DNA of 64,000 nt from Deltaproteobacteria bacterium (GTDB lineage Bacteria; Lernaellota; Lernaellaia; JACKCT01), in contig JADLEX010000143.1 in assembly GCA_020845895.1 (NCBI GenBank), positions 1 to 64,000 of the forward strand, read 5' to 3'. Positions 1,122 to 48,184 of this stretch are shown piece after piece. The first letter of the stretch is position 1. Every line of letters starts with the position of its first letter. Position numbers and translations under genes: made by a program. The notes under the pieces were generated by a model that was not told the DNA's origin, ran no database searches, and saw nothing but the letters and a program-made list of their open reading frames with translations.

Positions 1122-2777
1122 TTACATCGACGTCTTCACGACGGCGACGAGTTGATGAAGCGTGGCGTTGACGAGGTTGAATACCGGCGCGGGCCAGAAT
1201 CCCAGCAGCACCGTGACCGCGGCCAGCGGATAGAGCGTCAGCCGCTCGCGCCAGTTTACGTCCCACAGGTGCGCCCATTTCTCGTTGAACGCACCGAGGA
1301 ACATGCGCTGCATCGTCCACAGATAGTAACCCGCCGTGATGACGACCGCGGGAACCGCGCACACGATGAACCAGCGGAAGATCGGGTCCGCCGCGCCGAA
1401 TCCGCCGAGGAATACCAGCACCTCGCCGATGAATCCGGCCAGCCCCGGCAGGCCGAGCGACGCCATGAACGCGAGGCCCGTGAGCGCGGTGTACTCGGGC
1501 AATTTTGCGGCGAGGCCGCCGAAGCCCTCGATCTCGCGGGTGTGCGCGCGATCGTAAACGACGCCGGCGAGGAGGAAGAGCATCGGCGAGATCACGCCGT
1601 GCGAGACCATCTGGAACACGCTGCCCGAGATGCCCTGCGGCGTCAGCGAGGCCATGCCGAGCAGACAGAAGCCCATGTGGCTGACGGACGAGTACGCGAT
1701 GAGCTTCTTGAGGTCCTTTTGCGCGAGGCACACGAACGCGCCGTAGATGATGTTGATGACGCCGAACACCGCGATGATCGCCGCCGCGCTCACCATCACG
1801 CCGGGAAGCATCTGCATGTTGAAACGCAGGATGCCGTACATGCCCGTCTTGAGCAGGATGCCCGCGAGGATGACGGAGATCGGCGTGGGCGCATCGACGT
1901 GCGCGTCGGGAAGCCACGTGTGGAACGGGAACATCGGGACCTTGATGGAGAACCCGATGAAAAGCGCCGCGAAGACGATGGTCGGGAACGCAACGCCGAG
2001 AATCGGCGCGGCCGACGCGAAGGTGCCGTCGCGGCCCATGCGGATGAGTTCGACGATGTTGAAGGTGTGCGCGGTCGTCGTTCCGTCCACCAGGCGCGAC
2101 GGTCCCGAGTTGTAGTAGATCGCGATGAGCGCGAGCAGCATCAACACAGACCCGGCGAGCGTGTACAGGAAGAACTTGATCGCCGCGTAGGGGCCGCCGC
2201 GCACACGCCCATCGCCTTCGGTGCGCGTGGGCGCGCCCCAGATGCCGATCAGGAAGTACATGGGCAGGAGCATGATTTCCCAGAAGACGTAGAACAGGAA
2301 AAAGTCCTGCGCACAGAAGGTGCCGAGCACGCCGGTTTCGAGTAGAAGAAACAGGATCATGAAACCCGGCACGCGCTTTTTCGAGAAGTGCGGGTGATGC
2401 GCGTCGTCGAGGCGACCCCACCACGGCAGCGACGCGATCATCGCCGCGAGAAACACGAAGACGGTGAGCAGGACCATCGAGATCGACAGGCCGTCCACAC
2501 CGACAAAGTATTCGATGTTGAAATCGCGGATCCACACCACGCGGTGAACGAACTGGAGAGCCGTGTTCGCCCCGTCGAAGGCGCGCCAGAGCACGACGGC
2601 GAGCAGCGTCTCGACGAGACTTGCCGCGAGCGCGATCATCCGCGCCGCGTCATCCACGCACTCGCGTGAAATGCGCAGCGACCCGCCGAGCGCCCACACG
2701 GCGATGATCGCACCGATACCGATCACGGGCACGAAAATGATCCACGAAAGCAGTGTGCTTGTCGTTGTGTAGTCCAT
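1122..2777 (-). CDS. nuoM: NADH-quinone oxidoreductase subunit M
   Basis: This 551-residue multi-spanning membrane protein is one of three antiporter-like proton channels of complex I. I chose the ATG giving MDYTTTSTLLSW because an AGGGG ribosome site lies just upstream and because the longer open frame adds a non-hydrophobic Arg/Trp-rich stretch in the nuoL-nuoM spacer. Family features include the GVDGLSISMVLLTVF segment, the Glu-containing helix FFLFYVFWEIMLLPMYFLIG, the KVPMFPFHTWLPDAHVDAPT loop and KDLKKLIAYSSVSHMGF. The length matches ordinary NuoM. It is separated from nuoL by 73 bases and is followed 19 bases later by nuoN. Confidence 0.97.
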   Translation of the reverse strand: MDYTTTSTLLSWIIFVPVIGIGAIIAVWALGGSLRISRECVDDAARMIALAASLVETLLAVVLWRAFDGANTALQFVHRVVWIRDFNIEYFVGVDGLSISMVLLTVFVFLAAMIASLPWWGRLDDAHHPHFSKKRVPGFMILFLLLETGVLGTFCAQDFFLFYVFWEIMLLPMYFLIGIWGAPTRTEGDGRVRGGPYAAIKFFLYTLAGSVLMLLALIAIYYNSGPSRLVDGTTTAHTFNIVELIRMGRDGTFASAAPILGVAFPTIVFAALFIGFSIKVPMFPFHTWLPDAHVDAPTPISVILAGILLKTGMYGILRFNMQMLPGVMVSAAAIIAVFGVINIIYGAFVCLAQKDLKKLIAYSSVSHMGFCLLGMASLTPQGISGSVFQMVSHGVISPMLFLLAGVVYDRAHTREIEGFGGLAAKLPEYTALTGLAFMASLGLPGLAGFIGEVLVFLGGFGAADPIFRWFIVCAVPAVVITAGYYLWTMQRMFLGAFNEKWAHLWDVNWRERLTLYPLAAVTVLLGFWPAPVFNLVNATLHQLVAVVKTSM

Positions 2778-2850
2778 CTTCACCCCTGCCGGCGCATCGC
2801 GCCGGGTACGCACGAGCGGGCGAACGCGCCAAGGCGCGCCGCGCCGCCGA

Positions 2851-5094
2851 TCACCAAGGAAGTACGAACACCAAAACCACCAGCGCCAGTGCGCCGGCGA
2901 CCATTCCATAGAGATATGTCTGAATCCGTCCCGTCTGGATGCGGCGCAGATCGCGCCCGGCGCGCAGCACCGCTTCGCCGATGAGGTTGACGAGGCCGTC
3001 CACGAAGACGCAGTCGATCCAGCCCTGCAACTGCCCGAAGACGCGACCGATCGCTCCGCACAGGTTCACGATCGCGTCGACCACGTACCGGTCGAACCAC
3101 GAAAGCCCGGACGCCGTTCGGAGCGTATTGTCGATGAAAACCTTTTGATACAGCTCGTCCACGCGGTACTTGTCGAAGATCAGGCTGTGCATGGTACGCA
3201 CGAGCGCGTTGGGGCTCGCCAACAGTTTCGCCGGAATCGGATTCGTGTTGTTGCGATAAAGCCATCGCGCGAAACCGAAGCCCGTGAACGCGACAACCAC
3301 GGAGAAGGCCATGAGAGCCCACTCCCACGTCACCCCCTTTTCCGCCCAGCGAAGGCTCTCGGCGGTGCGGGCAAAGACCGGCTCCAACCAGTGCTCAAAC
3401 AGATTCGGCAGATTCCACAGGTGCGGCAACCCGATGAAGCCGCCCGCGACCGCGAAGAACGCCAGCACCGCGAGCACGCCGGTCATCGTTGCGGGGGATT
3501 CGTGCGGAACACTGCCATGATGACCGTGATCGTCATGTCCGTGTTCGCCGTGCGAGTGCGCCGCGCCGCGATACGCACCGCTGAAGGTCATGTAGTACGA
3601 GCGGAACATGTAGAACGACGTGCACAGCGCCGCGCTCGCCGCGATCACCCACAGCCAGAAACCCTGACTCGCGAAGCCGAGGTTCGCCGTGTCGAACGCC
3701 TTCCACAGAATTTCGTCTTTCGAAAAGAACCCTGAAAAGAACGGAAATCCCGCGATGGCGCAGCACGACAGGAAGTAGGTGACCGCCGTGATGGGCATCA
3801 GCGCACGCAGGCCGCCCATGCGGCGCATGTCCTGCTCGTGATGGCAGCCCAGAATCACGCTGCCCGACCCGAGGAAGAGACAGGCTTTGAAAAAGGCGTG
3901 CGTGACAAGGTGGAAGATGCCGACCCAGTACGCACCCACGCCGACCGCCACGAACATGAACCCGAGCTGGCTCACGGTCGAATAGGCGAGCACCTTTTTG
4001 ATGTCGTATTGGAACAGGCCGATGGTCGCCGCGAAGAGCGCCGTCGCCGCACCGACCGTGGCGACGACGGTCATCGCCGTGGTGCTGAGCGCGAAGAGGA
4101 AATTGAGCCGCGCGACCAGATACACGCCCGCGGTCACCATCGTCGCCGCGTGAATCAGCGCCGAGACCGGCGTGGGCCCCGCCATGGCGTCGGGCAGCCA
4201 GACGTATAAAGGAATCTGCGCGCTCTTTCCCGTCGCGCCCAAAAAGAGCAGCAGGCATGCGAGCGTGGCGATGCTCATCCCCCACCACCGCTGGCCCGTG
4301 AACGCATCCCGCCGTTCGGGGTTGTGCAGAATGCGCTCGACCTCGCGGAATTTCACCGAGGTGGCGGGCAGTGCTTCCACCTGACCGGACTCGTGCGCGC
4401 CGGCGTGCTCGGCAATCGCCGCCGTTTCTCCGAGGGCCGTTTCGACTGCCGGAACCGGCTCGAGCTTCGGCGCGGACCAGGTTCCGGCGAGTCCCCAGAA
4501 CACGAGAAACAGGCCGAGCGTAAAGCCCGCATCGCCGATGCGGTTCACGACGAACGCCTTCATGCCCGCCTGCGCCTTTTCGACGTCGCGATACCAGAAG
4601 CTGATGAGCAGGTACGAACACAGGCCCACGCCTTCCCACCCGACGAACATCAGCAGGAAGTTGTCGGCGAGCACGAGCGTGAGCATCGAGAACATGAAGA
4701 GGTTGAGATACGCGAAGAAGCGCCAGTAGCCCGGATCGCCCTTCATGTAGCCGATCGAATAAACGTGGATGAGGCTCCCCACGAACGTGACGACAAGCAC
4801 CATCACGGCGGATAGCGGGTCCATGAGGAGCGCGAGATCGACATCGAGATCGCCGATCGGCATCCACGCCCAGAGCTTGACGTAAAGCGCGCCGCCGTGG
4901 CCGAGTCCGGCGAGTTTCACGAAGCCGACGGCCGCGATAACGAACGACAGCCACGGCAGGATCACCGTCGGCCAATGAATGACGCCCTCGCCAAACCGCC
5001 GGTGCAGACGAAGCCCGAACGCGCCCGCGTAGATCGCGCCGAAGAGCGGAAAGATCGGGATCAACGCAAGGAGGGGAAAATCGCCGAGATGCAT
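2851..5094 (-). CDS. nuoL: NADH-quinone oxidoreductase subunit L
   Basis: At 747 residues this is the largest antiporter-like subunit of complex I, carrying the distal proton channel and the long lateral C-terminal helix. Motifs include FVGWEGVGLCSYLLISFWY, KSAQIPLYVWLPDAMAGPTP and YDIKKVLAYSTVSQLGFMF. It is longer than most NuoL (about 610-660 residues). The extra length includes a charged insertion around residues 215-265 and a His-rich loop around residues 512-530 (pattern SHGEHGHDDHGHHG), which could bind metal but is common in NuoL-like loops. The start lies 3 bases after the nuoK stop, so translation is probably coupled. Confidence 0.97.
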   Translation of the reverse strand: MHLGDFPLLALIPIFPLFGAIYAGAFGLRLHRRFGEGVIHWPTVILPWLSFVIAAVGFVKLAGLGHGGALYVKLWAWMPIGDLDVDLALLMDPLSAVMVLVVTFVGSLIHVYSIGYMKGDPGYWRFFAYLNLFMFSMLTLVLADNFLLMFVGWEGVGLCSYLLISFWYRDVEKAQAGMKAFVVNRIGDAGFTLGLFLVFWGLAGTWSAPKLEPVPAVETALGETAAIAEHAGAHESGQVEALPATSVKFREVERILHNPERRDAFTGQRWWGMSIATLACLLLFLGATGKSAQIPLYVWLPDAMAGPTPVSALIHAATMVTAGVYLVARLNFLFALSTTAMTVVATVGAATALFAATIGLFQYDIKKVLAYSTVSQLGFMFVAVGVGAYWVGIFHLVTHAFFKACLFLGSGSVILGCHHEQDMRRMGGLRALMPITAVTYFLSCCAIAGFPFFSGFFSKDEILWKAFDTANLGFASQGFWLWVIAASAALCTSFYMFRSYYMTFSGAYRGAAHSHGEHGHDDHGHHGSVPHESPATMTGVLAVLAFFAVAGGFIGLPHLWNLPNLFEHWLEPVFARTAESLRWAEKGVTWEWALMAFSVVVAFTGFGFARWLYRNNTNPIPAKLLASPNALVRTMHSLIFDKYRVDELYQKVFIDNTLRTASGLSWFDRYVVDAIVNLCGAIGRVFGQLQGWIDCVFVDGLVNLIGEAVLRAGRDLRRIQTGRIQTYLYGMVAGALALVVLVFVLPW

Positions 5095-47106: not shown

Positions 47107-47540
47107 GTTGAAGGTCGCGGGCCTCGGCCGCATGCCTACCACAACCGTCGCGGCCTGAGAACGCGAGTTTCCGCGGGTGATGCGGGACCGAACACAGGCA
47201 GGAGAACTTGTTCCGGTGGGATCGGTCGAGGGAAGGAGGGCCATTTGGGCTTCTGCCGCGACCGAACAAGCCTCAAATTCCTCAATACTTATGTATTTTC
47301 ATATATTTTTATATTTTATGATTATTTTATTTTTCCGCAGTATCTCAATATCCCATGCATCTAGTGGATATTCATGTGTTTTTCTTCTTGATAAAGAAGT
47401 TCGTTCCGTCGTAGGATCATCCTGACGGCAAAAGGGTTATCGGCCCGATTGCCGGGGGACTTTAGGGTTTTCTTGAGGCGAGTTTCACGGGATCCAAAGG
47501 TTGCGGCGCAAAGCCGCAGCGAACGAGGGGAGGATCGAAC
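47107..47540. other. AT-rich divergent regulatory region upstream of the repeat-protein gene
   Basis: No gene is visible in these 434 bases. From about 47274 to 47335 the sequence is almost only A and T (for example TATATTTTTATATTTTATGA), sharply unlike the rest of the window, and moderate AT-richness continues to about 47399. It is followed by a promoter-like element and two hairpins: CGGCAA/TTGCCG enclosing GGG/CCC (47426-47454), and TGCGGC-GCAAA-GCCGCA (47502-47518). These suggest a structured leader of about 120 bases. The AT block could bind H-NS-like or other nucleoid proteins, carry UP elements, or mark foreign DNA. Confidence 0.6.
47388..47417 (+). promoter_or_regulatory. Candidate promoter and operator for the repeat-protein gene
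   Basis: TTGATA (one mismatch) and TAGGAT are separated by 18 bases. The -35 box overlaps an inverted repeat CTTCTT-GATA-AAGAAG (47384-47399) that could be an operator. Transcription would start near 47424, giving a leader of about 117 bases that contains the two hairpins. Confidence 0.4.
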
Positions 47541-48122
47541 ATGCATCGTCTCGAAACTTGGTGGAAAGCCGGCTCCGCCCAGAAGAAGTTTGCGCTCGCG
47601 ATCGCGCTGTTTTTCGCGTGCGAACTGCTCTTCATGGCCTTCGCCGACTTCCCCACCGCCGGTGAAGCGGTGGTCGACGCATCCAGCGAAGCTGTGATTC
47701 AGACTTCGGGCGTCGGCTGGACGGGCATTCTGCCCGCGTGGTTCATCAACCTGTTCGGCACGGAAGCCATCAACACCGCCGGGGTTGGCTGGACGGGCAT
47801 TCTGCCTGCCTGGTTCATCAACCTGTTCGGCGCCGAGCCCATCACCACGGCCGGCGTCGGCTGGACGGGCATTCTGCCTGCCTGGTTCATCAACCTGTTC
47901 GGCATGGAGCCGATCACCACGGCCGGCGTCGGCTGGACGGGCATCCTGCCCGCGTGGTTCATCAATCTGTTCGGCGTCGAGCCCATCACCACGTCCGGCG
48001 TCGGCTGGACGGGCATCCTGCCCGCTTGGTTCATCAACCTGTTCGGCCCCGAACCCATCACCACGTCCGGTGTGGGGTGGACCGGGATCATCCCGATCTG
48101 GATCATCAACCTGTTCGGCTGA
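47541..48122 (+). CDS. Exported protein of six near-identical 24-residue hydrophobic repeats
   Basis: The 193-residue product has a short charged N-terminus, one hydrophobic export or membrane segment (about 17-36, KFALAIALFFACELLFMAFA) and a 15-residue acidic/neutral linker. The rest is repeats: five 24-residue units and a sixth 19-residue unit. The consensus is T-(A/S)-GVGWTGILPAWFINLFG-x-E-P-I-T; differences are confined mostly to the residue after FG and the linker. I recognise no family. An excellent GGGGAGGATCG site precedes the ATG and a strong terminator follows, so it is a real single-gene unit. Possibilities include a multi-copy peptide precursor, a membrane-active or self-assembling repeat protein, or a surface layer or filament component. 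Confidence 0.75.
   Translation: MHRLETWWKAGSAQKKFALAIALFFACELLFMAFADFPTAGEAVVDASSEAVIQTSGVGWTGILPAWFINLFGTEAINTAGVGWTGILPAWFINLFGAEPITTAGVGWTGILPAWFINLFGMEPITTAGVGWTGILPAWFINLFGVEPITTSGVGWTGILPAWFINLFGPEPITTSGVGWTGIIPIWIINLFG
47703..48119 (+). repeat. Six tandem 72-bp coding repeats
   Basis: Units begin at 47703, 47775, 47847, 47919, 47991 and 48063 (the last is 57 bp plus stop). The protein sequence is more uniform than the DNA: synonymous third-base changes occur between units while the GVGWTGILPAW core stays fixed. This suggests selection on the peptide sequence rather than very recent duplication only. The last unit has diverged (GIIPIWIINLFG). Confidence 0.95.
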
Positions 48123-48145
48123 TCCGACCGGCATCTGCGATCTCG

Positions 48146-48184
48146 ACGGGGAATCCGCAACCGCGGGTTCCCCGTTTTCGTTTC
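48146..48184 (+). terminator. Intrinsic terminator after the repeat-protein gene
   Basis: An 11-bp stem (core ACGGGGAA/TTCCCCGT, 48146-48156 with 48165-48175) and an 8-base loop are followed by TTTCGTTT, 24 bases after the stop codon. Confidence 0.82.

Follow-up and report, generated by a model that had tools for sequence, protein, structure and literature searches.

The repeat protein described here can be compared with several known systems. In LapD, the periplasmic domain carries a PxWF segment (residues 103–106), which Navarro et al. regard as a likely point of interaction with the inner membrane, as well as a GWxQ motif (residues 124–127) (PMC3032553); in our protein, the PAWF of the core matches the PxWF segment, with a GW that follows. 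DbfQ is a small periplasmic protein that tunes an adjacent sensor (PMC12714742), and regulators of this type, like the repeat protein, are small exported proteins whose genes adjoin that of a membrane sensor connected with c-di-GMP/biofilm control. Functional amyloids (curli CsgA and FapC) are small exported proteins with five to six tandem units of ~22 to 24 residues. Plant-type extracellular leucine-rich repeats (LRRs; 24 residues, LxGxIPxxLxNL) share with our units the 24-residue period and a local TG-x-[IL]-P-x-x-[FL]-x-N-L register, and multi-copy precursors (yeast alpha-factor and multi-core RiPPs) share the order of signal, spacer, and repeated W-rich core, with the last core at the C terminus.

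The gene lies in the 64,000-nt stretch of DNA that was analyzed (the window; 64% GC), which comes from a genome here called G000, and its features are collected in Table 1. The encoded protein has one N-terminal hydrophobic helix (hydropathy maximum 2.39; residues 13–34 in the AlphaFold2 [AF2] model) that is conserved across three genera in the alignment and is followed by the repeats; the original prediction of an exported or membrane-anchored repeat protein is supported. AFA|D is a possible signal-peptidase site at which the N-terminal segment may be cleaved. From residue 41 onward, the 153 residues include 12 W, 11 F, and 25 G but not a single K, R, H, or C. The earlier claim that the gene has its own leader, ribosome-binding site, and terminator is likewise supported.

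Table 1 Features of the repeat-protein gene and its flanking DNA, with positions in the window
Feature	Position	Strand	Basis
Extreme A/T-rich tract 5′ of the gene, 24% GC	47275..47394		Lowest-GC 120-bp stretch of the window
Candidate sigma-70-like promoter, TTGATA-18-TAGGAT, at the downstream edge of the A/T tract	47388..47417	+	Consensus scan, 9/12
Ribosome-binding site GGGGAGGA, 6 nt 5′ of the ATG	47527..47534	+	Read directly from sequence
Repeat-protein gene, 193 aa, ATG start	47541..48122	+	ORF translation; relatives in G001 and G002
N-terminal segment, residues 1–16 (MHRLETWWKAGSAQKK), positively charged	47541..47588	+	Translation
Single membrane helix/signal anchor, residues 17–35 (FALAIALFFACELLFMAFA)	47589..47645	+	Hydropathy, alignment, AF2
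Non-repeated spacer, residues 36–56	47646..47708	+	Translation
Repeat unit 1, core GVGWTGILPAWFINLFG + TEAINTA	47709..47780	+	Tandem Repeats Finder, translation
Repeat unit 2, core + AEPITTA	47781..47852	+	Tandem Repeats Finder, translation
Repeat unit 3, core + MEPITTA	47853..47924	+	Tandem Repeats Finder, translation
Repeat unit 4, core + VEPITTS	47925..47996	+	Tandem Repeats Finder, translation
Repeat unit 5, core + PEPITTS	47997..48068	+	Tandem Repeats Finder, translation
Terminal core 6 (GVGWTGIIPIWIINLFG), abutting the stop codon	48069..48119	+	Tandem Repeats Finder, translation
Intrinsic terminator, 14-pair stem followed by T run TTCGTTTCC	48145..48176	+	Computed

Tandem Repeats Finder placed the array at 47709–48119 (period 72, 5.7 copies, 88% match, score 568); all other arrays of the window are far weaker, with scores of 50–70. 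From residue 57, the protein consists of five 24-residue units (24-mer, TAGVGWTGILPAWFINLFGAEPIT) and a final 17-residue core, with GVGWTG starting at residues 57, 81, 105, 129, 153, and 177, i.e., at a spacing of exactly 24. This layout confirms the original prediction of five equal-length units plus a short sixth; the x-E-P-I-T linkers that it described were found in four of the five linkers, the first (TEAINTA) being different. Cores 1–5 are identical as peptides, and their DNA carries seven distinct substitutions, all seven of which are synonymous, an outcome with a chance of 0.8–2.8 × 10⁻⁴ under neutrality, depending on the transition bias. In comparison, the linkers show ~3 synonymous and 7 non-synonymous changes (core versus linker, Fisher p = 0.0098). 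Selection therefore acts on the core and not on the linker: the core is held by purifying selection, and the linkers are free to change, which bears out the earlier claim of selection on the peptide. Because this contrast lies inside one gene, it also answers the objection that the units are merely recent duplicates.

Next, we compared the gene with those of other members of the phylum, sampled as seven genomes. It occurs as one copy in G000, where no paralogues were found, and every one of the family's three genera (G000, G001, and G002) carries it. In the G001 relative (L002 1504–1794, (−) strand; 96 aa), the N-terminal helix is the same (KRFALLVAVVFACELLFLLLADVP), and the two units are SGVAWTGFSLDWFFNLFA and, directly before the stop codon, AGVAWTGFSFDWFFNLFG. 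The G002 relative (L003 1456–1866) shares this helix, and its units are based on GLNWVD..., as in AGLNWVDLLPGWFVHLFG; its reading frame is broken twice. Since the neighboring HD-GYP gene (L009 10555–12368) and further G002 genes are likewise divided between frames, the breaks probably stem from sequencing indels. What is kept among the three genera is the helix, which in the alignment carries a mid-membrane E/Q, the core, and the C-terminal LFG ([NH]LFG-stop in the relatives), and what varies is the copy number and the linkers. Specifically, G000, G001, and G002 have six, two, and ~three units with spacings of 24, 26, and 23 residues, respectively, and the linkers of the relatives (SNDADMTVA and TTSDVA) have no site in common with TEAINTA through PEPITTS.

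A further ORF of 131 aa (L111 295–690, (+) strand) was found in G003, which belongs to a different, sister family. It contains GVGWTG-x20-GVGWTG, the two copies being 26 residues apart, exactly the G001 spacing, but has neither a membrane segment nor the hydrophobic half of the core, and its GC3 is 0.66 versus 0.90 in the neighboring gene. Because of the missing membrane segment and the weak codon bias, we call it only a possible member, whose sequence may be that of a distant or decayed one.

Beyond the phylum, a protein-pattern scan of 84,980 species genomes yielded 88 candidate stretches and no relatives, and none of 20 candidates from viral contigs was a relative; both scans are pattern-based, and close kin of the window's genome may be left out of them. 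No relative was found among the phages and plasmids searched. A DNA pattern of two GV[GA]WTG copies gave 72 stretches in ~85,000 genomes (257 Gb), of which none proved a relative upon inspection of all frames; they consist solely of short Trp/Gly repeats, in proteins of actinobacteria and in others. Within the phylum, the two-copy DNA pattern occurs only in G000, G001, and G003 (in G003 at a single place), is absent from G002 and G004–G006, and gave zero matches in the backward control; the repeat gene was not found in G004, G005, or G006. Matches in G003 and G024 from the first genome search were rejected as chance matches to LRR proteins, and G003 encodes unrelated, near-perfect 24-residue bacterial LRR proteins (L005, L007; G003:C80, G003:C134). 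As far as searched, these sequence comparisons indicate a new family restricted to this lineage.

In agreement with the original prediction, none of the collections searched places the repeats in a known family: Pfam, NCBIfam, PHROGs, PADLOC, and the PDB sequences gave only repeat-inflated or weak matches, with nothing of substance from NCBIfam and PHROGs and no family for two members from the PADLOC anti-phage defense models, and no paper with GVGWTG was found in the literature searched. The full protein scored 26.7 bits against Pfam LapD_MoxY_N (PF16448; cut-off 25). This match consists of 14 residues, PAWFINLFGxEPIT, aligned with profile positions 82–95 and summed over the repeats; no single stretch of the protein passes alone, a 45-residue piece with about one match has an E-value of 0.061, no continuous match over the ~124 positions was found, and the G001 and G002 relatives gave no match. 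As an alternative, the repeats could be a lure for a LapG-type periplasmic protease, their PxWF...GW segments mimicking the LapD loop, in which both motifs occur (PMC3032553). In contrast to LapD, however, the protein has no PAS-like domain, no HAMP/GGDEF/EAL, and GWTG instead of the LapG-binding GWxQ, so that the Q is missing. LapG (Peptidase_C93) exceeded the cut-off in none of the seven phylum genomes, with a positive Caulobacter control, and the lure therefore fails as an explanation, which we regard as highly improbable.

A search of PDB sequences with phmmer gave a strong-looking match to the plant LRR protein GSO1 (E = 2.7e-8), which arises from the common 24-residue period and the local register given above. 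Membership of the LRRs was rejected: the LxxLxLxxN segment is absent from the repeats, which have AEPITTAGV at that place, the relatives are spaced by 26 and 23 residues and lack TG or P. Foldseek returned no LRR structure, with nothing in the PDB at E ≤ 0.001 for the low-confidence AF2 model. This model combines the helix with a solenoid of three strands per 24-residue turn at a pLDDT of 58, and the five models disagree (pLDDT 35–58). Together with a weak Foldseek match to FapC, a functional amyloid (E = 0.21), it would fit a beta-solenoid or amyloid-like filament that self-assembles in the envelope, each 24-residue unit being one turn of the stack. AF2 is known, however, to produce solenoids even from random sequences when these are repeated perfectly (PMC11795689), and from the same alignment rows it modeled the two-unit G001 relative as helices (H3–33, H54–69, and H76–95; pLDDT 49), which at this low confidence correspond to one membrane helix and one helix per unit. 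Given the low confidence, the bias on near-perfect repeats, and the helical model of the relative, we distrust the solenoid; neither model is reliable, and the two in combination leave the solenoid without support but do not prove helices. The varying copy number and spacing also argue for beads on a string rather than a solenoid of fixed register. Unlike the amyloids, moreover, the protein lacks a Gln/Asn-rich strand motif, is W/F-rich, and retains its hydrophobic anchor, and no curli or fap secretion genes were seen near the repeat gene. The solenoid or filament reading of the original prediction, with a solenoid drawn by AF2 solely for the near-perfect six-unit protein, is thus unsupported, and we consider it unlikely. 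The near-perfect repeats set three annotation traps: the Pfam match is a false positive, the LRR hit looks strong, and AF2 draws a solenoid. Automatic annotation could mislabel the protein as a LapD domain or an LRR.

We tentatively favor a protein anchored in the inner membrane, with units rich in W/F that sit at the membrane interface and act by avidity as a staple or tether. In favor of this reading are the fixed cores beside freely changing linkers, the varying copy number and spacing, and the conserved N-terminal helix. The helix would anchor it with the repeats in the periplasm, as suggested by a basic N terminus, which would stay inside, and an ectodomain devoid of K/R. Each core, a Trp/Phe/Ile stretch bounded by Gly ([SA]G[VL]xW..xxxxWFxxLFG), would bury its aromatic residues in the interface, most likely by forming a short helix in the plane of the membrane, and with many cores the protein would grip the membrane face at many points, the copy number setting the avidity and the linkers serving as mere spacers. 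It would then be an abundant membrane-stapling or tethering envelope protein, strongly transcribed from its own gene, with a possible output link to the c-di-GMP phosphodiesterase that adjoins its relatives. Predicted Wimley-White water-to-interface energies of −4.4 to −7.7 kcal/mol per unit, which are kept though the sequences differ, fit this reading, as does the hydropathy; the membrane-active core of the original prediction is plausible, and by analogy the PAWF of the core may touch the membrane as the PxWF segment of LapD is thought to do. The first G002 unit, in read-through (GLNWVDIVTWFTKFFEDFWNWLFG), forms an amphipathic helix with a moment of 0.39; the G000 and G001 cores have low helical moments (0.09–0.19), and those of G000 and G002 contain Pro, which disfavors a regular helix. 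The six-unit AF2 model, with its strands instead of helices, would speak against such a membrane protein, and the possible G003 relative, which lacks a membrane segment and the hydrophobic half of the core, fits a purely membrane-binding role poorly.

Proteins of the HD-GYP type are c-di-GMP phosphodiesterases. In both G001 and G002, the next gene 3′ of the repeat gene, on the same strand, encodes a multi-pass membrane HD-GYP protein (with GAF as well in G001), and no other gene within ~10 kb is common to the two loci (L008 versus L009), which excludes a shared neighborhood as the cause of the adjacency. The repeat protein might be an input or output partner of the HD-GYP protein, binding its multi-pass N-terminal domain and tuning its activity, for which DbfQ (PMC12714742) would be a precedent. 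A PilZ gene upstream in G001 is in line with such a partnership, as is the GVGWTG ORF of G003, which ends 40 bp 5′ of the orthologous HD-GYP gene; a chance match in this 0.5-kb interval has a probability of ~1e-7, base composition not yet being allowed for, and the two-copy motif is otherwise rare. Against it, the G003 ORF is doubtful by its GC3, a strong terminator separates the two genes in G001, and no repeat gene was found in G004, G005, or G006, although all three have the sensor domain. The adjacency is also lost in G000. There, the repeat gene is flanked by a divergent S9 (prolyl oligopeptidase) gene on one side and an OmpA/DUF4398 gene on the other, and the one close relative that the sensor domain has is found away from the repeat gene, in fusion with a hybrid histidine kinase. 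On balance, we hold a direct HD-GYP partnership to be rather doubtful. A broader coupling, in which GVxWTG would be the recognized element and the repeat number its avidity, and which would connect the state of the membrane or envelope to a multi-pass sensor (an HD-GYP phosphodiesterase in most of the lineage and the hybrid kinase in G000), also seems unlikely to us. More generally, the protein may be linked to c-di-GMP (surface-life) signaling.

The sensor domain itself is fused to a histidine kinase and receiver in G000 (L022 5020–7164, (−) strand) and to HD-GYP-GAF in the relatives (L008 7675–9594, (−) strand), so that a single family shows a swap of output modules. G001 and G002 share synteny with the window over its OmpA-tsaD-DUF2062-rsmA-kinase-panC region and have the repeat gene at another place. 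A mobile insertion was rejected, given the OmpA-side synteny without the repeat gene in these genomes, with insertion elements judged from the listed ORFs.

The S9 gene beside the repeat gene in G000, the order of signal, spacer, and repeated cores with linkers, and the last core abutting the stop codon would suit a multi-copy precursor that releases Trp-rich peptides of 17–24 residues (signal, antimicrobial, or RiPP-like). Unlike in known precursors, however, there are no basic, dibasic, or other conserved cleavage sites; the linkers differ between genera, their Pro is absent in the relatives, and the adjoining gene is a different one in G001 and G002. No modification, protease-transporter, or immunity genes were recognized among the neighbors, nor other maturation genes nearby. 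This part of the original prediction is left unsupported, and we regard it as quite improbable.

A strongly transcribed membrane-stapling protein would also be in keeping with the A/T-rich tract 5′ of the gene, which the original prediction had overlooked. The second-lowest 120-bp stretch of the window has 43% GC, compared with the 24% of the tract, and a 40-bp run of W with ≤2 mismatches occurs at a single place in the 4.98-Mb G000 genome (47294–47334). G002 has two such W40 tracts in 5.2 Mb, one of them directly 5′ of the repeat gene (G002:C1:140700–140767, in L009; 13% GC over 120 bp), and G001 has two W36 tracts (at a slightly looser threshold) in 4.8 Mb, again with one directly 5′ of the repeat gene (G001:C80:16468–16508, in L008). 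Promoter-like hexamers are found at the downstream edge of the tract in G000 and G002; in G000, where the candidate promoter is a consensus match only, the region contains three promoter-like sites versus 0.4 expected from shuffles. The tract is a candidate UP-element-like region that would drive strong transcription. In both G000 and G001, a terminator 3′ of the gene defines it as a single-gene unit; in G002, a GC-rich hairpin and T run are visible 3′ of the gene. No Rfam family reached its gathering score in the leader, and a riboswitch or RNA element was rejected, as was a replication origin at the tract, where the GC-skew shows no clear change. Elsewhere in the phylum, such tracts adjoin the gene of a FadL-type porin and that of a probable RiPP precursor, a placement that suits strong promoters better than a replication origin. 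The latter tract, in G004, is equally A/T-rich and precedes a 74-aa probable precursor (L156 3538–3759, (−) strand) without a Pfam family, which ends in ...NCACVSIGCIVCGDVGA and is followed by a radical-SAM/SPASM enzyme gene (1951–3261, (−) strand).

The repeat protein is real, under selection, in no known family, and lineage-restricted. It is ordinary in kind, i.e., an orphan exported repeat protein, and unusual in its sequence, promoter region, and c-di-GMP neighborhood; its function is one that we infer. The pattern is a clean one, in which a 17-residue aromatic core is frozen by selection, its surroundings drift, the copy number varies, and the tract 5′ of the gene ranks among the most A/T-rich in each genome. 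If the protein does grip the membrane, the genera would provide a natural series of two, three, and six copies for how repeat number sets membrane avidity, and if the HD-GYP link is true, the protein would be an entry point to the input of a multi-pass c-di-GMP sensor.
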